31,658 bases of DNA. Source: a virus. The notes beneath the pieces are model-generated. The model had not been told where the DNA came from and searched no databases. It worked only from the letters and a program-made list of their open reading frames with translations. The first letter of the stretch is position 1. Each line of letters opens with the position of its first letter. Made by a program: the position numbers and the translations under genes. Positions 14,882 through 29,432 of the stretch are shown here, in pieces. The stretch is from IMG/VR virus record IMGVR_UViG_3300032322_001322, positions 1 through 31,658 of that record; one strand, given 5' to 3'.

Positions 14882-15312
14882 GACTTCCTCCCTGCGGCAG
14901 CAGTGCCAAAGTAGAAACCAACAATCGCTACGAGTATTTGACGATTTTCAGATGTATAAAGGTATCCATTGATTTCAACGAAATACTTCTTTGCAGTCTC
15001 TGGGAATAGGCCAAACAATGCTTCTGGATTTGTTGAATCAACCTCTACAAAGGTAGGAACACCGAAGAATGGTAGAATGAAAGGAGCAGCAATGGTTCCA
15101 AATAGAACTGTTAGAACGATTAGCTGACGAACACCCTTGCCGACATCAAGGGGAACTCGTTGAGCCGCCTTATCCTGATTTTCGGTTGTCTGCTTGTTGG
15201 CAGCAATTAGGCGTTCAAATAGCTCTTTTTGATCCTGACTCTTCTGAGCCATGAATCGAAACAAAAATCCAGTAAGGCTTCCGCCTATCAATGAAATCAA
15301 CTCAGTCGGCAT
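14878..15312 (-). CDS. Three-TM holin-like membrane protein
   Basis: A 144-residue membrane protein with hydrophobic segments at about residues 5-20 (LISLIGGSLTGFLFRFMA), 63-84 (LIVLTVLFGTIAAPFILPF) and 125-141 (ILVAIVGFYFGTAAAG). A charged coiled-coil stretch follows the first (QKSQDQKELFERLIAANKQ). The final GFYFGTAAAGRKS resembles the end of the three-TM holin family first described from gene-transfer agents. In context, a small lipoprotein follows at ATGA, which would make a lysis pair, but no endolysin is in the window. The start at 15312 has GGAGGTTATT upstream. The late promoter lies so close that the predicted transcript begins at this GGAGG. A structural membrane protein is the alternative. 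Confidence 0.78.
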   Translation of the reverse strand: MPTELISLIGGSLTGFLFRFMAQKSQDQKELFERLIAANKQTTENQDKAAQRVPLDVGKGVRQLIVLTVLFGTIAAPFILPFFGVPTFVEVDSTNPEALFGLFPETAKKYFVEINGYLYTSENRQILVAIVGFYFGTAAAGRKS

Positions 15313-15327
15313 AATAACCTCCAGAAT

Positions 15328-15335
15328 TATTTATA
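15328..15335 (-). promoter_or_regulatory. T4-type late promoter (TATAAATA)
   Basis: An exact TATAAATA reads on the - strand. With T4 late geometry (octamer at -13 to -6), +1 is position 15322, the first G of the GGAGG Shine-Dalgarno for the gene at 15312, leaving a ten-base leader. It heads the holin-like/lipoprotein/620-aa operon. Confidence 0.75.
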
Positions 15336-17586: not shown

Positions 17587-18209
17587 TATTTCTCCAATGT
17601 TATTTGATGGCCTAACTGAACTTCTATTCTATCTTTTGCGTGTCTCATTTCAGTTGCTACAACTTGTTCTTTTACTTGATCCACCTTTTCGTCACTACAC
17701 CAGTGAACGATCAGATAGCCAACATTCATTCCCTTATTGACTATTGGAACAGCCATGTAAGCCACGACATTGCTGGCGAAGAACAGTTGTCTCTGATAAG
17801 ATTCTTTCATCAGAGTAACAATTTCAAACTTGTGCTTTGATTCAAGAATAGAACGAATGAAATCGATATAAGCAGAAATAAGAACATCCTTCTTCTGATG
17901 AACTTCTGCGCTGATTCCAGAGCGAAGAGATTCGTGAGTGAGGCTCATCTTCTTCATAGACACTCCGTCCATGAAATATTCTCCGTTGTGGAATTGAATG
18001 ATTTGTGCTCTGGCTGCGTCTGTGCGAATTCTAAGTTCTGTTAAGATCTCATGAATCTCTGAATGAATGTTCCAATATTGCTTTTGTTCTTTCTTCTTCT
18101 TTTCAGAAAATAGCTTTTCTTTTATTTTCTTAAGACCGTAGAAAGCACCTACAATAAATGTGGCGGTAGCTATACCGTATTCAAACAACTCAGGATTCAG
18201 ATCAAACAT
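17586..18209 (-). CDS. Membrane-anchored protein with GAF-like domain, unknown function
   Basis: A 207-residue protein with a single N-terminal membrane segment (about residues 11-26, YGIATATFIVGAFYGL). A lysine-rich coiled coil (KKIKEKLFSEKKKKEQKQ) follows, then a soluble domain. In that domain, ELRIRTDAARAQIIQFHNGEYFMDG and the late VAYMAVPIVNKGMNVGYLIVHW look like a GAF-type alpha/beta fold, as used for ligand or signal sensing. No catalytic motif is seen. It starts at TAATG, overlapping the stop of the 785-aa gene, and ends overlapping the next gene. A membrane sensor or virion/membrane adaptor are both possible; the GAF assignment is a pattern impression only. Confidence 0.78.
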   Translation of the reverse strand: MFDLNPELFEYGIATATFIVGAFYGLKKIKEKLFSEKKKKEQKQYWNIHSEIHEILTELRIRTDAARAQIIQFHNGEYFMDGVSMKKMSLTHESLRSGISAEVHQKKDVLISAYIDFIRSILESKHKFEIVTLMKESYQRQLFFASNVVAYMAVPIVNKGMNVGYLIVHWCSDEKVDQVKEQVVATEMRHAKDRIEVQLGHQITLEK

Positions 18210-20566
18210 TACTTATCCTTTCCCTTATAGGTATTCGTGATTCCTCGCTTGGCTTTCTTGTAGGGTTCTCCCTTGTGGTGGCCATTGTCAGCTCTATTGT
18301 CACTTGGATTTCTCAAGCGAAGATTGCTGGGCGAATTGTTCATGGGGTTGCCATCTTTGTGGTCCACATCCTTACCTTTGATGGCGGCTTTACCCCATTT
18401 TTCTTCTGCGGCTCTTCTGGCCTTATTTCTGTTTGATCTGTGGTGGCTGGTCTTCTTTGAATAATGTTTTTCGTGGCCTTCTAATTTTTCTAGTATAAGA
18501 TTTTCTATTCTTACTCTAGATTCCTTAATAGTTTTTGTTGACATGTCCCCCTTATCCATGACAACAGGAATTCTTACTTCTTTGTTTTTAATCTTGATTA
18601 TGTTGTATTCGTTTTTCTTCTTTTCTGAAGACGAAGCTTCATTTCCTGGGTTGATTGAAATGTTGATATCAACCTCAAAATTTTCCATAATCTGCTGATA
18701 GACGATGGTATCAATGTTGTTAAGAAGTTCGATGGTGTTTATAACAACCATAGATTCGTCTATTGGTTGTTGTTCCATTTTTTCCTTTACCTCTTCTACT
18801 ATTGTCTTTAAGTTTTCAAAATTCTTAGGTAAATTTGATCCCTTCGATCTTCTTCCTCTACCAGAGCTAGTCTTGATGGGAATTAACTTAACTTCAGCCT
18901 TCTTAGCAAATTCTGCGATCATCTGATCGTTTATTATGAATAGACCGCTGTCTGTTAATAGATGTGTTGCATTTGCTCTAGGATCGATTGTGTTTATGCC
19001 AGAAATAAAATACTTGGTCAATAGATTAATCATGCTCTGGAAAAAGAATGTCTTTTGGAACAAATTCTTATCAGCAGCTATTTGATCTGTGTAGCTCTTG
19101 ATATAATTCATGAAGCTCGATAACTTTGCTTGCTCATAAATCATTCCATTTTGATCAATTATATTGTACTTGGCTAAAATATTAATAACTTCTGGATTTG
19201 CAAGAATTTCTGGATTTTGGTCATCGACCATGTACATCGAAAAACTGTTTAGCCCATTTCTCATTGGAGCTAAGTAAAGATCGACTTGATCATACTGCTT
19301 CATATTAGGATCAGATGGTATTGCTAAAGGAATCAAACTATTGATTACACTCTTCAATTTTATTCCATAATTTGAAGATGTCGTTGATTCCTTTATGTAA
19401 GTTTTACCCACGACAATCTTAAATGTGTTTCCACCACAAATCAATTGGCTTCTTTCAAATCCAGGAGCATCTGGAGCTACACCAAGTTCGTCAATGTGCA
19501 TTAGATTCTGGAAGCAAGATTCTCCAAGTTCCAACAACAGCTTTCTTGCTACATCGAATGCTGCTTCATCAAAATCAAATAGTCTTGCGTTTTGGAATTG
19601 CTGCATATATTGCAACTCTTCAGGAGAAGCACCAGAACAAACTCTAGAAACAGTCAGTATTGCATTTTCAATCTGGAAATTTCTATCGTCTTTATTTTCT
19701 GATTTTACTCCAATTCTCTCGGTCAACATTTTATACGAAATGTTGCTGAGATTTTCAAACACATTCTTTACTTTCGACCGAATTTGTTTGAGCTGTTCAA
19801 AGATGATTGCAGGATCAACAGGTACAGGAACTTCTCCTGTAGCTCCCTCTGGAGCTTGTTCTTGTTCTTCTTGGGGCTGGGAATCTTCAGCGGCTTCTTC
19901 TTCTTGTTCATTAATTAGTCTTGAGGATTGAATAGAGAAATATTCATTCAATCTTCTCTCCTCTCTCTTTCTTAGTTTATCTTTTTCTTTTTCATCACCA
20001 GTCAACGATACTTTGCTGGAAAGTCTTAGATCTTTTCTGAAATCCGATAGACCACGGAACATATCATTTTGTCTTCTGGTTTTTCCAGATTGCAAGTTCT
20101 CAAAAATATTTTCTACCGCTTCGTAGTATGGTTTATGAATGGGTTGTCCTTGCATTTTGTCCATTGCTCTTGCTTCGCCTCTCTCTTCTGCGTGTTGGGC
20201 TATCATCTCTCGTTTGTCAACTTTACCTTGAGCATTTTTTCTTTTTCTTTTAATATTTAATAATGCTCTTTCTGATTTTATTTCAGAAGATGCTCTCTTT
20301 TCAAAATAATCGCCTGTGCCAAGCATTTTGTCTTTATTAGCACCTTCGGCTGTCTCTTCTTTTTGTTTTCTTTTTAACATAGCCGAAAGAAACATACCTT
20401 TACGGTTTTCATTTCTTCTTGATGCGGCTAATTGTTTTCTCTCGTATCTCTGGCCAATTACTGTATCGCGGAGATTTGTTCCTTCATCCAATTTATCTTG
20501 GACAAATGGCAAAACTTCATCATTATAACGCTTTAAAAATTCAGAATCGAACCAGGAATTTGGCAT
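18209..20566 (-). CDS. 785-aa protein with C-terminal HNH nuclease domain, probable virion protein
   Basis: A long multidomain protein of unknown overall family. Residues about 1-220 are highly charged and helical (KKRKNAQGKVDKREM, EKDKLRKREERRLNEYF), and about 215-255 form an acidic Glu/Gln/Pro linker. About 260-560 is a folded helical region (DFDEAAFDVARKLLLELG, YDQVDLYLAPMRNGLNSFSMY). The last 80 residues form an HNH module: RNKARRAAEEKWGK, DVDHKDGNPMNNSPSNLRL and SDNRADN, with the DH and NN residues of HNH nucleases. Such HNH modules are often separate small genes, so this looks like a fusion. The start is fixed by TATAAATA five bases upstream, giving a leaderless message with no Shine-Dalgarno. 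It heads a six-gene overlapping late operon. Confidence 0.82.
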   Translation of the reverse strand: MPNSWFDSEFLKRYNDEVLPFVQDKLDEGTNLRDTVIGQRYERKQLAASRRNENRKGMFLSAMLKRKQKEETAEGANKDKMLGTGDYFEKRASSEIKSERALLNIKRKRKNAQGKVDKREMIAQHAEERGEARAMDKMQGQPIHKPYYEAVENIFENLQSGKTRRQNDMFRGLSDFRKDLRLSSKVSLTGDEKEKDKLRKREERRLNEYFSIQSSRLINEQEEEAAEDSQPQEEQEQAPEGATGEVPVPVDPAIIFEQLKQIRSKVKNVFENLSNISYKMLTERIGVKSENKDDRNFQIENAILTVSRVCSGASPEELQYMQQFQNARLFDFDEAAFDVARKLLLELGESCFQNLMHIDELGVAPDAPGFERSQLICGGNTFKIVVGKTYIKESTTSSNYGIKLKSVINSLIPLAIPSDPNMKQYDQVDLYLAPMRNGLNSFSMYMVDDQNPEILANPEVINILAKYNIIDQNGMIYEQAKLSSFMNYIKSYTDQIAADKNLFQKTFFFQSMINLLTKYFISGINTIDPRANATHLLTDSGLFIINDQMIAEFAKKAEVKLIPIKTSSGRGRRSKGSNLPKNFENLKTIVEEVKEKMEQQPIDESMVVINTIELLNNIDTIVYQQIMENFEVDINISINPGNEASSSEKKKNEYNIIKIKNKEVRIPVVMDKGDMSTKTIKESRVRIENLILEKLEGHEKHYSKKTSHHRSNRNKARRAAEEKWGKAAIKGKDVDHKDGNPMNNSPSNLRLRNPSDNRADNGHHKGEPYKKAKRGITNTYKGKDK

Positions 20567-20571
20567 GTAGT

Positions 20572-20579
20572 TATTTATA
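20572..20579 (-). promoter_or_regulatory. T4-type late promoter (TATAAATA), leaderless geometry
   Basis: An exact TATAAATA on the - strand is followed by five bases (ACTAC) and then the ATG at 20566, so the T4-type +1 is the A of the start codon. It lies directly downstream of a terminator, so the operon behind it is insulated. Confidence 0.78.
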
Positions 20580-20582
20580 AAG

Positions 20583-20608
20583 AAAAAAGGCGGGTCATTT
20601 GACCCGCC
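20583..20608 (-). terminator. Intrinsic terminator
   Basis: GGCGGGTC/GACCCGCC forms an eight-base-pair GC-rich stem (20589-20608) with a four-base loop. On the - strand it is followed by six T and more T-rich sequence. It ends the operon of 22996-20614; the late promoter of the next operon begins only four bases beyond it. Confidence 0.9.
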
Positions 20609-20613
20609 TCAGT

Positions 20614-20742
20614 TCACTTCCGATTCCAGGGGAAGAACTTTGATACCCATGTCCAAAGTCCCTGACCGATGAGCGCACCAGTTACGAAAACTACTACGCT
20701 GTAAAAAATAGTGCCTAAAGATTCGCTGATTACTAATTCCAT
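20614..20742 (-). CDS. Small single-span membrane peptide (42 aa)
   Basis: A 42-residue peptide beginning MELVISESLGTIFYSVVV and ending KFFPWNRK. Residues about 9-31 form one hydrophobic segment (GTIFYSVVVFVTGALIGQGLW), followed by an aromatic and basic tail, so the C-terminus is probably cytoplasmic. The frame is supported by a strong AAGGAGGAATGAC ribosome site upstream of the ATG at 20742, two bases after the stop of the previous gene, and by a terminator just after its stop. The short N-terminus and single span recall small holin, antiholin or inner-membrane accessory peptides, but there is no family signature. Its presence in the exonuclease operon gives no further clue. Confidence 0.78.
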   Translation of the reverse strand: MELVISESLGTIFYSVVVFVTGALIGQGLWTWVSKFFPWNRK

Positions 20743-20743
20743 G

Positions 20744-21145
20744 TCATTCCTCCTTTCTTAAAAACTTATATCCCTTATAGGATTTTCGTTTTCCTGTCAT
20801 TAGGTCATACATGGCTCCGCGAACAAGCTTGTTGTCCATGCAATATTCTAATAAGTTCTTTATGTAAACTTCTTTTCCTTCCTTATTTTGGAAAACATAA
20901 TTTTTGCCTCTTTCGACGCGAATAACTGGTTCTGGGGCTTTAAACTCCTGAATTTTTTTCTCAAAGTCTTCTATTAAAAGCTTCTCAAAATCCATTTCCA
21001 CCCATTTCCAATTACGGCCTTCCTTTATGAATTTTCCGCCGTATTTCTGAATGAACTGATTTCTGAAATAAGGAGCCTTTGCGTCCTCATTCATACGAAC
21101 CCAGGTTCTTGTATTTCTACGATTAACTTGCTCTTTTTCGTTCAT
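20744..21145 (-). CDS. Basic protein with homing-endonuclease-like DNA-binding C-terminus, unknown function
   Basis: A 133-residue basic protein. The ATG at 21145 is preferred over earlier codons, which lie deep in the exonuclease gene; it overlaps that gene by 23 bases. An N-terminal segment (RNTRTWVRMNEDAKAPYF, YGGKFIKEGRNWKWVEMDF) may be one small fold. The C-terminal 45 residues (VYIKNLLEYCMDNKLVRGAMYDLMTGKRKSYKGYKF in overall pattern) look like the helix-turn-helix repeat that follows the nuclease in many phage homing endonucleases, where GxRKSYKGY is a recurring end. No nuclease motif is present here. It may bind DNA together with the adjacent PD-(D/E)XK protein. Confidence 0.72.
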   Translation of the reverse strand: MNEKEQVNRRNTRTWVRMNEDAKAPYFRNQFIQKYGGKFIKEGRNWKWVEMDFEKLLIEDFEKKIQEFKAPEPVIRVERGKNYVFQNKEGKEVYIKNLLEYCMDNKLVRGAMYDLMTGKRKSYKGYKFLRKEE

Positions 21146-21791
21146 TGTGTTCTTTATACTTCTGGATGATATTGTACAAATTTGAGACATAATTCATGGG
21201 ATTATCCTCAAATATTTGAACTGTGCCATCCTCACATGATATTAGAATGACGAAGTTATCTATGCTCTCTCCGGTCATCTCTTTCCATAAAAGAGCATAA
21301 GCAGTAGCCTGCATCATATAATTTTCGATATCTTCTTTTCTTTTAGCTCTCGTACTACCCTTAAAGTCGATTATGCTTAGTTTATCTTTATAATAACCAA
21401 TGCAATCTACTCGACCCGCCAATCCAACTGTATTTCCATACAGAGGAAGTTCAAGGGCTTTGATTTTATCGATATTATCTAATTCCTTTTTGATTTGCAT
21501 AAAAAGATCTAAATCGTTTGGCATTAGATTTAAATCTTCTACACTTTCATTTTTTAGATAAGATTCTATTATAGAGTGTAAGCGATTACCCCTTGAGGTT
21601 ACTCGCTTGGCTTCCTCTGGATTTTGTTTTCTCCAGACTTTAAAGAATTCTTGTTTTTCGAATCCTACAACTGTGGTTACGCTCGGAAATGATCCTGCTT
21701 CGGTAATGTAATACCTTCCACGATCACCTTCGGTCGATTCTACTTCTTTACCCACATTTACGAATTCATGAATGAATGTTTTTTGAATCAT
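21123..21791 (-). CDS. PD-(D/E)XK exonuclease (RecB/Cas4-like nuclease fold)
   Basis: A 222-residue nuclease of the PD-(D/E)XK superfamily. The conserved elements are the GNRLHSIIESYL helix (H72), AGRVDCIGYY with D129, the core IIDFKGS with D142 and K144, and the QATAYAL helix (Q161, Y165), typical of RecB- and Cas4-type exonucleases. It probably degrades or processes DNA ends during recombination, host genome breakdown or packaging. The N-terminus (RYYITEAGSFPSVTTVVG) matches the start of phage exonucleases of this type. There are no cysteines that would form a Cas4 iron-sulfur cluster. It overlaps the previous gene by four bases (ATGA). Confidence 0.87.
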   Translation of the reverse strand: MIQKTFIHEFVNVGKEVESTEGDRGRYYITEAGSFPSVTTVVGFEKQEFFKVWRKQNPEEAKRVTSRGNRLHSIIESYLKNESVEDLNLMPNDLDLFMQIKKELDNIDKIKALELPLYGNTVGLAGRVDCIGYYKDKLSIIDFKGSTRAKRKEDIENYMMQATAYALLWKEMTGESIDNFVILISCEDGTVQIFEDNPMNYVSNLYNIIQKYKEHNERKRAS

Positions 21792-22996
21792 GCGTAATAA
21801 ATCGTTCCACCGACTCCAGTTCTTGCTTGTGTTTCTAGTGTATCATTATACACATCGTATGGATTGCTACCAACACTAAATCCAAGATCTCTACCTTCAC
21901 TGCTTCCGCCACCAAATAGGGCAGCTCTTACCTTTGCTGGAGCTGATCCGGGTGCTCCAGGCTTACCGCTAGTAGAAGGGGGTGTAGGAGCAGTTGTGGC
22001 GGCTTTGGCGGCTGTGGCAGCTGTAGCAGCTGTAGCAGCCGTGGCAGCCGTGGCAGCAGGTGCGGTCTGGGTTGAGGTAGCTTTGACTCCCTCTTTAGCA
22101 GCCTGGGTTGCGGTAGCCTTTACACCTTCTTTTGCTGCTTGTTGTGAGGTAGCTTTAACTGCTTCTTTTGCCGCTTGTTGGGTAGCAGCTTTCACTCCTT
22201 GCTGAACCCCTTGTTTAACTTCTTGGTTTACTGCTTGTTTAGTTCCTGTTTGTACAGCTTGTTTTTCGGCTGTTTTAGCAGCCTGTTGAGTGGCTGTTTT
22301 TACTGTCTGCTGTTCAGCTGCCTTAACAGCTTGTTGAGTTCCTGTTTGCACAGCCTGTTTAGTAGCTGTTTGTGCAGCTTGTTGAGTAGCGGCTTTTACT
22401 CCTTGCTGAACTGCTTGTTTTTCTACTTGAACAACTCCTTGCGCTACGGCTGGAGCAACTGTTCTGGCTGCTGCTCTTTCAGCGGCTGGGGCAAATGAAA
22501 GTAGCGCAGACAAACCAGCAGTAACTAGTTTCTTTTTCCAATTTTCGTTTAGCTTACTTTTTTTTTTAAGTTTCTTACGGAGTTCTACTTGCTTTTCTCT
22601 TTCTTTTACGAAAGTCTTTACCTTGCTAGTGATATCCCTATTATTGGAATCAAGAACTCTAAATGTCTTTGCGCTATGGATTACATCAAGCAAACCTTTT
22701 TGAGATGTTGCTGTGCGAACTACCTTCCCTTGGGGAGTGATAATTTCTATCTTGTAAGATCCCTTCTTAAAGACTGGTCCCTCTTTTTTGTCTTTTTCGT
22801 TTTTTCTTGCTACTGGAGCCTCATCTTCTATAAGAATCTCAGTGAAGGAATAAATTTCACTTTCTGAAAGCGGTCTACCAAGATACTTTTCTGATGCTTC
22901 TAAGATATCAGCTATTTTGCTTATTTGCTTTTTGCTATTAATTTCATTCAATGCAGCTTGGCTGGATTCGGTCAAAATATCTTGGTATTTCTTCAT
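21788..22996 (-). CDS. Repeat-rich protein with capsid-targeting-like N-terminus (402 aa)
   Basis: The N-terminus MKKYQDILTES closely resembles the capsid-targeting peptide of T4 internal proteins (MKTYQEFIAEA) and ends in a similar cleavage-like L-T-E. A small folded region follows (KGSYKIEIITPQGKVVRTA). Next come a lysine-rich stretch, a short hydrophobic Ala-rich segment, about 118 residues of an eight-residue QQAVKAAE-type repeat, a run of Ala-Ala-Thr triplets, and a Gly/Ser/Pro tail. The start at 22996, rather than ATGs at 23020 or 23011, is set by GATAAATA exactly five bases upstream and by the T4-like N-terminus. The body looks like a disordered or LEA-like helical protein. A head-internal, possibly ejected protein is my best inference. 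Confidence 0.78.
   Translation of the reverse strand: MKKYQDILTESSQAALNEINSKKQISKIADILEASEKYLGRPLSESEIYSFTEILIEDEAPVARKNEKDKKEGPVFKKGSYKIEIITPQGKVVRTATSQKGLLDVIHSAKTFRVLDSNNRDITSKVKTFVKEREKQVELRKKLKKKSKLNENWKKKLVTAGLSALLSFAPAAERAAARTVAPAVAQGVVQVEKQAVQQGVKAATQQAAQTATKQAVQTGTQQAVKAAEQQTVKTATQQAAKTAEKQAVQTGTKQAVNQEVKQGVQQGVKAATQQAAKEAVKATSQQAAKEGVKATATQAAKEGVKATSTQTAPAATAATAATAATAATAAKAATTAPTPPSTSGKPGAPGSAPAKVRAALFGGGSSEGRDLGFSVGSNPYDVYNDTLETQARTGVGGTIYYA
21998..22060 (-). repeat. Nine-base tandem repeat encoding Ala-Ala-Thr
   Basis: About seven copies of a nine-base unit (read on + as GCAGCTGTA, GCAGCCGTG and variants) encode AAT triplets in the 402-aa protein. The unit keeps frame, so copy-number changes would lengthen the protein without breaking it. 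Confidence 0.85.
22067..22420 (-). repeat. Degenerate 24-base repeat encoding an octapeptide (QQAVKAAE-like)
   Basis: About 14-15 units of eight residues run through this stretch: QQGVKAAT, QQAAQTAT, KQAVQTGT, QQAVKAAE, QQTVKTAT, KEGVKATS and others. Gln/Lys, Ala/Gly, Val and Thr recur at fixed positions. Divergence between copies indicates old expansion rather than a recent slippage event. Confidence 0.85.
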
Positions 22997-23001
22997 ACTC
23001 T

Positions 23002-23009
23002 TATTTATC
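23002..23009 (-). promoter_or_regulatory. T4-type late promoter, one mismatch (GATAAATA), leaderless geometry
   Basis: GATAAATA on the - strand is followed by AGAGT and then the ATG at 22996, so +1 falls on the start codon exactly as at 20566 and 23871. It overlaps the last codon of the zinc-ribbon gene, whose stop is at 23008. Confidence 0.6.
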
Positions 23010-23307
23010 ATCTTTCCCATCTCGACCCGCTGGTATTTGATGCGCGGTCTATGTTTTTATGGAATCTTTTGGGCATACCCCTTTTCATCTTACTTGTTAG
23101 TTCATTCCATGCCCCACCAGTTGCCTTATTCGGGGTTAAAGTACTATCGGCAGCAAGACCTGGAGTTTGGCCCACCCAGCTCTTTTCTATTCCCATTTCC
23201 TTGCACTTAGGACAAGGCTTTTCGCATGGAGCAGTTCGATTTGCGATTGTTTCTACTTGTTCAAAAAGATGTTTACACTTTGTACATTCGTAATTATAAG
23301 TTGGCAT
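23008..23307 (-). CDS. FmdB-type zinc-ribbon protein (99 aa)
   Basis: A 99-residue protein with an N-terminal zinc ribbon: MPTYNYECTKCKHLFEQ supplies C8 and C11, and PCEKPCPKC supplies the second pair. This matches the short FmdB/CxxC family of putative regulators and is often seen in T4-like phages. The rest (GGAWNELTSKMKRGMPKRFHKNID) is basic and probably helical. The start at 23307 has TAGGATAAAAT upstream, four bases after the HNH gene stop, so the two are cotranscribed. Zinc-binding with a nucleic acid or protein partner is likely; a structural (neck or tail) role has been proposed for similar phage proteins, but I cannot verify it here. Confidence 0.85.
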   Translation of the reverse strand: MPTYNYECTKCKHLFEQVETIANRTAPCEKPCPKCKEMGIEKSWVGQTPGLAADSTLTPNKATGGAWNELTSKMKRGMPKRFHKNIDRASNTSGSRWER

Positions 23308-23310
23308 ATT

Positions 23311-23835
23311 TTATCCTACAAATTTGGACCAGCACTTATTTAGTTCAATAAGTTCTCGTAAACCAAGAACATTTACAAGTGGTGGTCTTGGCTTCTTATT
23401 TAGCTTGAGTCCAACATCCTTTGGATAATTATTTGCCTTTTTCAGATTACATCTGCGGCAACAAGTAACCATGTTTTCCCATGTAGAACCACCACCCTTA
23501 CTTCTTGGGGTGACATGATCAATTGTTGCCGTATCTTCTGTGAGTTTTTCATCACAGTACTGACAACTATATTGATCGCGTAAGAAAATATTTTTGCGAG
23601 TGGGTGTAATTCTTCTATATGGAATACGAATGTAGTTCCGAAGAATAATGATTTTAGGAAGTTGGATTACCTTATCAGGCAATCGTATTTCATAAAACTC
23701 ATCGACTGTATGCTCAAGTGCTTTGCCACTATAAAGCAATTTGACAGCACGATTCCATTCAATAATGTTCACGACTTCTTCGGATGCATTTAAGAGCAAT
23801 ACTCTTTTACTCATCTGCTTATATTTAGGTTTCAT
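23311..23835 (-). CDS. HNH endonuclease (CxxC type)
   Basis: A 174-residue HNH nuclease. The beta-beta-alpha-metal motif is clear: CQYCDEKL, then ATIDHVTPRSKGGG with the catalytic H, then NMVTCCRRCNLKKAN with the second CxxC and the final asparagine. The N-terminal half (VLLLNASEEVVNIIEWNRAVKLLYSGKALE) is the characteristic extension of bacterial and phage HNH proteins of this class, so it is a normal stand-alone nuclease rather than an intron-borne remnant. Two starts are possible: ATG at 23835 (GGAG within the two to eight bases upstream, close to a TATAAT at 23844-23849) or ATG at 23814. Its role may be host DNA cleavage or genome processing. Confidence 0.88.
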   Translation of the reverse strand: MKPKYKQMSKRVLLLNASEEVVNIIEWNRAVKLLYSGKALEHTVDEFYEIRLPDKVIQLPKIIILRNYIRIPYRRITPTRKNIFLRDQYSCQYCDEKLTEDTATIDHVTPRSKGGGSTWENMVTCCRRCNLKKANNYPKDVGLKLNKKPRPPLVNVLGLRELIELNKCWSKFVG

Positions 23836-23843
23836 GCTCCAAA

Positions 23844-23849
23844 ATTATA
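23844..23849 (-). promoter_or_regulatory. TATAAT -10 box upstream of HNH gene
   Basis: A perfect TATAAT on the - strand lies eight bases before the ATG at 23835, so transcription would start within two bases of the start codon. No good -35 hexamer is seen (3/6 at best), so this is tentative. It shares a 35-base intergenic gap with the divergent late promoter at 23858-23865. Confidence 0.4.
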
Positions 23850-23857
23850 CAACACAA

Positions 23858-23865
23858 TATAAATA
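23858..23865 (+). promoter_or_regulatory. T4-type late promoter (TATAAATA), leaderless geometry
   Basis: An exact TATAAATA is followed by five bases (TTTCC) and the ATG at 23871, so the T4-type +1 is the A of the start codon. There is no Shine-Dalgarno. Confidence 0.75.
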
Positions 23866-23870
23866 TTTCC

Positions 23871-24035
23871 ATGAAAAACTTTCAACAATTGATGGAGATG
23901 ATTCGTAAAGTAGGAAACAAATACAAAGTTTTGGATTCCTCTGGTGAGAAAGTTCTAGGAACACATCCAACAAAAGAAAAAGCGGCCAAGCAATTGGCCG
24001 CTATTGAGATTTCGAAAGCAAAAAGGGGAAAATGA
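23871..24035 (+). CDS. Small conserved-type basic phage protein (54 aa)
   Basis: A 54-residue protein (MKNFQQLMEMIRKVGNKYK at the start). It has an amphipathic N-terminal helix followed by NKYKVLDSSGEKVLGTHPTKEKAAKQLAAIEISK. This last block recurs, in my memory, in many phages as a short domain: a two-stranded hairpin, GTHxTKxKAxKQLAAIE, then a basic tail. The frame is supported by an exact late promoter with +1 on the ATG and by this recognisable block. It is the only + strand gene between two - strand genes and ends one base before the stop of the convergent gene. A perfect hairpin inside it serves as the terminator of that neighbour. Confidence 0.8.
   Translation: MKNFQQLMEMIRKVGNKYKVLDSSGEKVLGTHPTKEKAAKQLAAIEISKAKRGK
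23972..24002 (-). terminator. Intrinsic terminator embedded in the convergent coding sequence
   Basis: AGCGGCCAA (23981-23989) and TTGGCCGCT (23994-24002) form a perfect nine-base-pair stem with a four-base loop. Read on the - strand it is followed by TTTTTCTTTT (23980 downward). It lies 35 bases beyond the stop of the - strand gene at 24037, but entirely within the + strand 54-aa gene. Confidence 0.85.
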
Positions 24036-24036
24036 T

Positions 24037-24702
24037 TTAAATAGTCATTCCCATTGCTCTTGCTCTTTCAAGATCCTTATCTCTTCTTTCTTGTGCTAAT
24101 CGTGATCTAGTAGATTGCAAATATCCTGGTTGCTGTTTCTTTCTTTCATTTTCAGCTGCTAATTCTGCCGCAGTTTTAACCCCTTCTCTTTTGAAGACTT
24201 CATCTGCTGCTGTATCAACTGTTTGCTGATCTAGTCTTTCTTGTTCTACTGTTCTATTTGTTACTGGATGTTGGCCAGTATAACCTGGAAGAGTTCGTGT
24301 TGGGCCTTGTCCTGTAGTTGGTTGACTGCTTGTAGAAGAAAAGGATATGGGGCTTTGTTGAAGCATTCTTCCCCCAGTACCTAGACTCAATGAAGGTTTG
24401 GATGGACCGCCATAAAGAGTTGGTTTACCTGATTCGGGATCAATTCCTTGTCTATATCCCATTCTTCCTAAAGTACCAGAAAATGCATCTTCAGTATCTT
24501 CTACCGACCCACCAGGAATCTCTGCTCCCCCCGAAGGTCTTTTATTTTGCCCCATACCCATTAGTCTATCATGAACAGAGCCTTGTGTAGCAAATGCACT
24601 ATTTTGTGTTATTGGACTTCTATTAAAAGAAAATGCCTCATTTAAAACTTTTATTGCTGCTTTTTCTAAAGATTTGTTTCTATTAAATGAGAAATGGAAC
24701 AT
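24037..24702 (-). CDS. Gly/Ser/Pro-rich protein of unknown function with LNEA N-terminal helix
   Basis: A 221-residue low-complexity protein. The N-terminus (FNRNKSLEKAAIKVLNEAFSF) is an amphipathic helix ending in LNE-A, another capsid-targeting-like pattern. Residues about 45-160 are rich in Gly, Ser, Pro, Thr and Gln (GGAEIPGGSVEDTEDAFSG, SFSSTSSQPTTGQGPT) and probably disordered. The C-terminal 60 residues are a charged helix (FKREGVKTAAELAAENERKKQ, RLAQERRDKDLERARAMGM). No catalytic motif or membrane segment is seen. Upstream, a TATAAT (24720-24715) lies 12 bases from the ATG, overlapping the divergent late promoter, without a clear -35. It ends in a strong terminator. A virion component is likely but unproved. 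Confidence 0.75.
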   Translation of the reverse strand: MFHFSFNRNKSLEKAAIKVLNEAFSFNRSPITQNSAFATQGSVHDRLMGMGQNKRPSGGAEIPGGSVEDTEDAFSGTLGRMGYRQGIDPESGKPTLYGGPSKPSLSLGTGGRMLQQSPISFSSTSSQPTTGQGPTRTLPGYTGQHPVTNRTVEQERLDQQTVDTAADEVFKREGVKTAAELAAENERKKQQPGYLQSTRSRLAQERRDKDLERARAMGMTI

Positions 24703-24716
24703 ATTTTATGTATGAT

Positions 24717-24724
24717 TATAAATA
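24717..24724 (+). promoter_or_regulatory. T4-type late promoter (TATAAATA), near-leaderless geometry
   Basis: An exact TATAAATA is followed by six bases (CTCTGA) and the ATG at 24731. The T4-type +1 is the A directly before the start codon, giving a one-base leader and no Shine-Dalgarno. Confidence 0.75.
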
Positions 24725-24730
24725 CTCTGA

Positions 24731-25444
24731 ATGAGTATATTAAATTTAACCATATTGAACAGAATGAAATTTCTAGAAGAAAAAATTTCATTACTTGAAA
24801 ATGAGAATTTAAATTTGAAAATGCTTGTAGAAGCAGTTACTACAGCTACAGTCGCATTACCTACTTCTACGGTTAAAGCCGCAAAAGAATATAGAGAACC
24901 TAATTTAAATCAATCATCAAGAGGACAAATTACTTATAGAGCAGCAGCATCTTCATCTGCTGGTGGTTTAAATCCTGATACTAGTCTTGGTCAACCCCCC
25001 CAACCCCCCCAACTACCAACTGGGCCTGATTACAATGGAGATGGTGTCGTTGATGGCGCAGATCTTGGCATTTATAACGCACTTTATGGCCAACCAGGAT
25101 TTGATGGTGCAGCTTTAGGTGGATTGCTTGCTGGTTGGTCTGATCAAGCACAACCCCCTCAACCTCCCCAATTACCAACTGGACCTGATTACAACGGAGA
25201 TGGTGTAGTTGACGGGGCTGATCTTGGTATTTTTAATTCTTATTATGGTCAACCAGGATTTGATGGTGCAGCTTTAGGTGCATTACTTACAGCAATGGGA
25301 CAGCCAAGTAGTGGTGGTGGAGGTCAAACCCCAGAACCCCCCTCAACAACATTCTCAGAATTTGCCAGATCTTTAAGAGGAACTTCAACTAAAGATATTG
25401 CTTCTCTATCAGGTTCAAGATATGTTCCCACATATATAAATTAA
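24731..25444 (+). CDS. Virion-type protein with coiled-coil N-terminus and two dockerin-like repeats
   Basis: A 237-residue protein. Residues 1-36 form a short coiled coil (ILNRMKFLEEKISLLENEN, then LKMLVEAV) like that of the next gene. After a Ser/Ala-rich linker there are two 53-residue repeats. Each has a proline stretch (QPPQPPQLPTGP) and a dockerin type I-like calcium loop, DYNGDGVVDGADLG, with the D-x-N-x-D-G spacing and the closing D at position 12. Each ends in YGQPGFDGAALG. The tail is Ser/Gly/Pro-rich. Dockerin F-hands bind calcium and usually dock with cohesins; here they probably stabilise a virion surface or internal protein, since no cohesin is seen. The start is fixed by TATAAATA six bases upstream. 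It is probably late expressed. Confidence 0.8.
   Translation: MSILNLTILNRMKFLEEKISLLENENLNLKMLVEAVTTATVALPTSTVKAAKEYREPNLNQSSRGQITYRAAASSSAGGLNPDTSLGQPPQPPQLPTGPDYNGDGVVDGADLGIYNALYGQPGFDGAALGGLLAGWSDQAQPPQPPQLPTGPDYNGDGVVDGADLGIFNSYYGQPGFDGAALGALLTAMGQPSSGGGGQTPEPPSTTFSEFARSLRGTSTKDIASLSGSRYVPTYIN
24992..25309 (+). repeat. Two-copy 159-base direct repeat encoding dockerin-like units
   Basis: Unit 1 (about 24992-25150) and unit 2 (about 25151-25309) align with an offset of 159 bases, conserving the proline linker, the calcium-loop codons and GQPGFDGAALG. Most differences are at third positions, so the protein repeat is under selection. Unit 1 opens with two C7 tracts, which unit 2 has lost. 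Confidence 0.88.
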
Positions 25445-28673: not shown

Positions 28674-29407
28674 TGTAATCCCTGTCTCCTAAAGAAATCT
28701 GATTTTTGTGCTGCATCTGTTTGCATATCAATTGCATCTTGATCTGCTTCGTGCTGTTCAAGTGCTTTTTGTGCCGACATTTGAGAATCATGTTTTCTGT
28801 TTAGAGCATCGACAAACATTCCATGTATTTGTTCTCTTGCCTCATCTGATAACCCTTTAGGAAGATGATCTTCTAAATGTGCTCCTGCATCTACTGGAGC
28901 AAATCGTTTTCCTTTAGAACTGCTTAAGGGGTGTGTTATTTCTCTAGGAGCTTGTCCGCTGTGAAATGCATTTGGATTTTGTTCAAATCCATGAAATTCT
29001 CCCTCAATTCCCGGCATATCGTCTTTTCCATAAACCAATTCATGATATGCTGAATCAGCAATTTCGTCAAGGTCAACATTTGGTTTTGAGTGTGATGCCT
29101 TAATAGCGGCAATTTCATCCTTACTTTTTCCTGCTCGTTGAGCCGCTAGAAATGCTAAAGTTCCTTTAGCTGTTAGTCTTGGAGAGGTCAAATCTTCTAC
29201 TTCTCTTTTTACTGCATCTTCAACACTTTGTCTTCTACGATCTTCTGCATCAAATGCATCCTGATAGACATGACCACCGCCATTCATTTCAACAATAGAC
29301 TTTGGCTTCTGCCAAGAGTTCTTTCTAATAGAATTTTGAAAACCAATCATGTCCTGATTGTTTTGTTGCATGTTCTGAATGTATGAAAAGAATAGTTTGC
29401 GATCCAT
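28670..29407 (-). CDS. Charged protein of unknown function (245 aa)
   Basis: A 245-residue hydrophilic protein, first gene of a two-gene late cassette. The start at 29407 is chosen because GGAGAAAAAAAC precedes it and a TATAAATA lies 17 bases upstream; codons further upstream in frame run through the promoter and a terminator. It has helical N-terminal (FFSYIQNMQQNNQDMIGFQN) and central regions (EDRRRQSVEDAVKREVEDL, LTAKGTLAFLAAQRAGKSKDE), a Gly/His-containing middle (EGEFHGFEQNPNAFHSG), and a C-terminal Gln/Ala/Asp helix. There is no catalytic or membrane feature. The late promoter argues for a virion or assembly role. Confidence 0.77.
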   Translation of the reverse strand: MDRKLFFSYIQNMQQNNQDMIGFQNSIRKNSWQKPKSIVEMNGGGHVYQDAFDAEDRRRQSVEDAVKREVEDLTSPRLTAKGTLAFLAAQRAGKSKDEIAAIKASHSKPNVDLDEIADSAYHELVYGKDDMPGIEGEFHGFEQNPNAFHSGQAPREITHPLSSSKGKRFAPVDAGAHLEDHLPKGLSDEAREQIHGMFVDALNRKHDSQMSAQKALEQHEADQDAIDMQTDAAQKSDFFRRQGLQ

Positions 29408-29424: not shown

Positions 29425-29432
29425 TATTTATA
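29425..29432 (-). promoter_or_regulatory. T4-type late promoter (TATAAATA)
   Basis: An exact TATAAATA reads on the - strand. With T4 late geometry, +1 is position 29419, the first G of the GGAG Shine-Dalgarno for the gene at 29407, leaving a 12-base leader. It sits immediately downstream of the terminator at 29433-29459. Confidence 0.75.

Follow-up and report, generated by a model that had tools for sequence, protein, structure and literature searches.

The window analysed here, the whole 31,658-base virus record IMGVR_UViG_3300032322_001322 and probably a fragment, carries three [T/G]ATAAATA octamers at exactly 5 nt (N5) before an ATG and one at 6 nt (N6), which raises the question of whether late mRNAs of this phage begin on the start codon itself. 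In the late promoter of phage T4, roughly one helical turn separates an 8-bp box from the transcription start downstream of it (review PMC2988020). Our analysis favours, with a probability of about 0.85 and with 5′ ends unmapped, the reading that T4-type late promoters are fused to the start codon and give rise to leaderless late mRNAs.

The window encodes the T4-type replication genes gp43, UvsX, a gp41-like helicase and a primase. Its gp43 is 52% identical to those of marine cyanomyoviruses and 45–47% identical to those of pelagi- and methylophages, and the gp43 tree places the window beside both groups with moderate support (80/89). By this grouping with pelagi- and cyanomyoviruses, the window is a Kyanoviridae-like relative of T4. 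A near-DNA search of the window against isolate phages gave no match, and an IMG/VR search with its phage peptidase and CTS-like protein gave no useful new relatives. The fragment does not contain gp55, and the phage's own late sigma factor thus remains unseen.

Octamers and start codons in the window

The octamers, the genes behind them and two late promoters of ordinary spacing are as follows.

20572..20579, minus strand: TATAAATA octamer, N5 = ACTAC, ATG at 20566
18209..20566, minus strand: 785-aa gene, predicted leaderless, the first in a run of overlapping genes that reaches 15342
20587..20610, minus strand: hairpin of an intrinsic terminator, its end separated by 7 nt from the 20579 octamer downstream
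23002..23009, minus strand: GATAAATA octamer, N5 = AGAGT, ATG at 22996; shares bases with the stop codon of the preceding gene
21788..22996, minus strand: 402-aa gene, predicted leaderless, N-terminus MKKYQDILTES
23858..23865, plus strand: TATAAATA octamer, N5 = TTTCC, ATG at 23871
23871..24035, plus strand: 54-aa gene, predicted leaderless, PHROG 3684, unknown function
24717..24724, plus strand: TATAAATA octamer, N6 = CTCTGA, ATG at 24731; predicted leader 0–1 nt
24731..25444, plus strand: 237-aa gene, predicted leaderless or with a 1-nt leader
15328..15335, minus strand: contrasting TATAAATA late promoter, N15 leader with GGAGG Shine–Dalgarno (SD) sequence, ATG at 15312
29425..29432, minus strand: contrasting TATAAATA late promoter, N17 leader with GGAG SD, ATG at 29407; directly after a terminator

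No SD lies between octamer and ATG at any of the four short-spaced sites. A preliminary description of the window had reported these four octamers, their spacings and the lack of a convincing SD, and all of this held (three N5, one N6). The pattern KATAAATA-N5-ATG occurs three times against 0.06 expected from dinucleotide shuffles, none of 100 shuffles reaching three, and two of the five TATAAATA sites in the window stand at N5 to a gene ATG, against about 0.008 per occurrence for permuted octamers. Since two further octamers precede ordinary SD leaders, the predicted leaderless arrangement is one of two promoter classes. At the 20579 octamer, the terminator (20610–20587; a 40-nt stretch folds at −21.5 kcal/mol) ends so close upstream that it leaves no room for an upstream leader or SD.

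Some features of these sites speak against our reading. The 24717 site has the N6 spacing with a purine at −1, which would give a 1-nt leader and not a strict +1 AUG; this too is an inference from sequence alone. In addition, the 23009 site and several sites in the Pelagibacter phage HTVC008M fall where two genes meet, and ribosomes could conceivably reinitiate there on a message that reads through from the upstream gene. Late expression of the window genes is itself only presumed, from the octamers, and the view that these octamers require no −35 element rests on the consensus, without experiment.

The 785-aa protein has an HNH_3 domain only at its C-terminus, its first 700 residues being without a match; isolate phages match it in the HNH part only. 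The N-termini encoded at 22996 (MKKYQDILTES), 16733 (MKKFKDIINLLESE) and 23871 (MKNFQQLMEM) resemble, and we take them to be like, the capsid-targeting sequences of T4, on resemblance only. Protein starts of the MKxFxxF type also occur behind N5 promoters in other IMG/VR contigs (L040 and L062).

Conservation in relatives of the window

One relative, an IMG/VR contig (L003, record G001), has aligned blocks of 72–88% DNA identity to the window and conserves the arrangement. It keeps N5, N5 and N6 at three of the window sites (23009, 23858 and 24717), the counterpart of the 23858 site reading CATAAATA-N5-ATG, and at the fourth gene, the counterpart of ATG 20566, it has TATACATA-N5-ATG. The 23009 octamer, its spacer and ATG 22996 are identical between the two, and the 11 nt from the upstream stop codon to this ATG are the same despite differing flanking DNA. 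An alternative upstream ATG at 23020, offered by the ORF caller for the 402-aa gene, is not conserved in L003, whereas ATG 22996 is.

Two other contigs (L629 and L638) have TATAAATA-N5-ATG before the same type of N-terminus as the 20566 gene, and further contigs of the same clade have it ahead of similar N-termini (MNDSWFD and MRDTWFD). At this gene type, seven N5 sites were counted in further relatives against 0.07 expected. In the wider clade, with RNR 70–75% identical, the short spacings are less clean (3, 4, 5, 7 and 8 nt).

An N5 class in isolate phages

Across whole genomes, we determined how far TATAAATA stands from the first in-frame ATG of the called gene behind it. T4 has 22–23 octamer-linked gene starts, all at N13–34, in agreement with the earlier statement that T4 late genes generally have leaders. 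No N5 gene start was found in T4, RB49, pf16, Cr30, Syn9, S-PM2, DSL-LC03 or Ochrobactrum OC, and the proposition that all T4-like phages use this arrangement is rejected on these eight.

By contrast, N5 starts are present in the Pelagibacter phages HTVC008M (five with TATAAATA and three with [CGA]ATAAATA) and Mosig (two and four) and in the methylophage Melnitz (two and one). The remaining promoters of these three phages mostly lie at least 15 nt from the ATG and are accompanied by an SD. All five TATAAATA-N5-ATG sites in the HTVC008M record coincide with annotated CDS starts, the genes being a 2OG oxygenase, CsgF, gp2, gp25 and a baseplate gene. With the broader pattern NATAAATA-N5-ATG, counts against the reversed pattern were 9 to 1 in HTVC008M, 8 to 0 in Mosig and 4 to 0 in Melnitz. 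In cyanophages the count is near the reversed-pattern control and most lack the N5 class; the Prochlorococcus phage P-SSM4, from a group otherwise without it, has two TATAAATA-N5-ATG gene starts (107303 and 172868).

At HTVC008M 109413, Mosig 89816 and two environmental gp2 loci (L273 and L284), the octamer stands at N8 with GTT directly before the ATG; such promoters could constitute a class with a 3-nt leader.

Spacing in environmental contigs

In 80 gp23-bearing viral contigs (667 kb), the spacing from TATAAATA to the gene ATG is bimodal. Thirty-eight octamers lie at N5, where 0.29 were expected, and none at N4 or N6; the other short spacings are N-1 (one), N7 (one), N8 (two) and N13 (one). 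The second class is broad (N15–39) and mostly has an SD, which is found at 0 of the 38 N5 sites. Among 80 gp2 orthologues, 36–64% identical to the query, NATAAATA-N5-ATG precedes 52 (50 scored, with L279 and L281 added by eye), and another 12 have the octamer at N6 and three at N4. No GTG or TTG start was found at N5. The octamers precede late structural genes: gp2, gp25 and the baseplate gene in HTVC008M, and, in environmental contigs, gp2 as well as the gene that follows gp23.

A trivial account would attribute the pattern to chance or to base composition, as the octamer and the start codon both consist largely of A and T. This account is all but excluded by the controls, in which counts were near zero whether the sequence was dinucleotide-shuffled, the octamer permuted or the pattern reversed.

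Predicted transcription start

The base at −1 of the ATG is T at 38 of 38 N5 sites in the gp23 contigs and T or C at 48 of 50 in the gp2 set; in the window it is C, T and C at the N5 sites and A at the N6 site. In leadered promoters, the position at the same distance from the octamer is T or C in only 37–48%. At octamer+6, A is the commonest base in leadered promoters as well (79% in the three isolates, 59% in the gp23 contigs and 52% in T4/RB49, without RNA data). That the −1 pyrimidine is confined to N5 sites supports a transcription start at the A of the AUG. The pyrimidine–purine step at the A of the ATG is what would be expected if RNA starts there, although no RNA ends are available. As a feature of the DNA, this initiator signature and its absence from leadered promoters are established; initiation at that base is an inference.

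A rival explanation holds that the N5 octamer acts in translation, as an AU-rich site for the ribosome or for S1 that stands where an SD would, the transcripts being longer and made from other promoters. The octamer does occupy the usual SD position, and some N5 sites lie at operon junctions. However, the spacing is exactly 5 nt, without the spread of 4–9 nt, the −1 pyrimidine is a feature of transcription starts, one octamer has a terminator only 7 nt ahead of it, and the more distant octamers are accompanied by an SD. We consider this rival very unlikely.

Predicted leaderless and leadered forms of one gene

After gp23, the first gene driven by an octamer differs between parts of the gp23 tree: it is predicted to be leaderless in a large clade that includes HTVC008M and Mosig, and is leadered, with an SD, in the Melnitz clade. 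This gene is in most cases the RQP gene (~200 aa), which probably encodes the tail tube. In Melnitz (MZ577097, near 129242) and two contigs (L347 and L360), the N5 ATG is kept and is followed by an SD, and the conserved tail-tube-like protein starts 17–20 nt after the N5 ATG, out of frame with it. The retained ATG may be a leftover of the leaderless state, marking a switch of state, or a 5′-terminal upstream AUG. For the lineage of the window, descent of the trait with loss in cyanophages and a separate gain are both possible, and the gp43 tree does not decide between them.

These Melnitz-like genes, whose protein begins behind an SD past the N5 ATG, also offer support for a second rival, in which starts are misassigned, translation truly beginning further downstream after an SD and the N5 ATG being there by coincidence. 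Against it, the N5 ATG is where the conserved N-terminus starts in gp2, in the tail tube and in the window genes, and the N5 ATGs of HTVC008M are the annotated starts. Misassignment is very unlikely as a general explanation, and leaderless initiation at the N5 ATG remains the preferred reading.

Ribosomal protein bS21 and the host

The preliminary description had suggested that leaderless late mRNAs would imply either a suitable host or a phage factor, and this point is undecided. The ribosomal protein bS21 (PF01165) is encoded by HTVC008M, Mosig and Melnitz and by 0 of 16 other T4-like records. In 13 environmental records with bS21, the N5 pattern matches 33 times against 7 for the reversed control; these longer records were used because loci flanking bS21 have almost no octamer-linked genes and spacing beside bS21 is uninformative. 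We did not find bS21 in the window, in G001 or in 23 further related contigs, all possibly fragments, and P-SSM4 has its two N5 sites without bS21. Given these cases and the confounding effect of shared ancestry, the bS21 link is no more than a hypothesis, and a strict rule linking N5 starts to bS21 is not established. In most of the bS21 loci inspected (L413–L495), a TATAAATA octamer lies about 520–780 nt downstream on the same strand; that it serves as the promoter of bS21 was rejected on account of this position.

According to work cited in PMC9723584, E. coli 70S ribosomes take up the bS21 of HTVC008M, and phage bS21 has been proposed to favour phage mRNAs (PMC9723584). The phage bS21 discussed there resembles our case in being carried by the three N5 isolates, and differs in that we found no published link to leaderless phage mRNAs, the connection being association only. 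A bolder reading would be a two-tier late translation in pelagic T4-like phages, in which the late sigma sets +1 on the AUG and phage bS21 replaces that of the host in the 30S platform, favouring leaderless over SD-led host mRNAs. Taken jointly, these two parts are unlikely to hold; if they did, they would explain why such phages carry bS21.

A sub-question rather than a full rival is whether leaderless initiation rests on the host alone, without a factor from the phage, the host being SAR11, OM43 or, for the phage of the window, an unknown bacterium. SAR11 and OM43 are the hosts of the N5 isolates, and many bacteria need no special factor for leaderless translation, according to the literature. 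Against this, 592 kb of SAR11 contigs scanned for TATAAT-to-ATG spacing gave no leaderless peak, although these contigs were caught with a 16S oligonucleotide and had crude gene starts, making the test weak. The evidence leaves host-alone initiation as plausible as its opposite.

Discussion

We propose that a gp55-like late sigma factor would recognize an octamer placed so that +1 is the A of the AUG, that the late polymerase would thereby produce an mRNA with a leader of 0–1 nt, and that the ribosome would start at this 5′-terminal AUG instead of at an SD. The same phages would keep a second class of late promoter, with leader and SD. The RNA start at the AUG, gp55 as the agent and the use of the 5′ AUG by the ribosome are all inferred from sequence alone. 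By comparison, the position of the octamers, their exact spacing without an SD, the −1 pyrimidine, the conservation, the bimodality and the distribution among clades are shown. A class of late promoters with its own start codon is real and general, occurring both in the clade of the window and in T4-like phages that infect marine heterotrophs; its leaderless use is the inferred part. As for the earlier claims, the assignment of +1 to the A of the AUG gained support from the −1 pyrimidine of the N5 class, without mapped 5′ ends. The idea of systematic leaderless late mRNAs was supported at the level of sequence, for a subset of late genes that coexists with the SD class. Randomly spread spacing, named there as a refutation, did not appear in the scan with controls: spacing is sharply bimodal and conserved in orthologues.

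The T4-like phages that infect marine heterotrophs are very abundant, and analogy with T4 has so far guided the reading of their late expression. If our reading is true, some of the late regulon can do without a ribosome-binding site and much late protein would come from such mRNAs. A promoter carrying its own start codon changes start annotation in these genomes, and the N5 class is a concrete mRNA feature to set against the unexplained bS21 gene of these phages. A cyanophage review describes NATAAATA promoters without an N5 spacing class (PMC2984593). In the open-licence literature searched, we found no report of leaderless mRNAs with T4-like late promoters, in cyanophages or Pelagibacter phages, although this absence is not proof.

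The promoters share with the gp55/gp33/gp45-dependent late promoters of T4 (PMC2988020) the 8-bp TATA box, its distance to the start and the lack of a −35 element, and differ in that T4 gene starts lie 13–34 nt downstream, whereas in the present phages a large class has a spacing of exactly 5 nt and no SD. Bacterial leaderless mRNAs, to which many mycobacterial genes belong (PMC4633059), likewise have the AUG at most 1 nt from the (here predicted) 5′ end, no SD and AUG only; the difference is that here a phage late regulon is predicted, without experiment, to use one stereotyped promoter that fixes +1 on the AUG. Finally, the Melnitz-like tail-tube gene, with its N5 ATG, SD and out-of-frame start, resembles E. 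coli mRNAs that carry a 5′-terminal AUG and a downstream SD (PMC4965119), but here the leaderless and leadered states apparently switch within one orthologous gene, which makes both forms of that gene available in nature for comparison.
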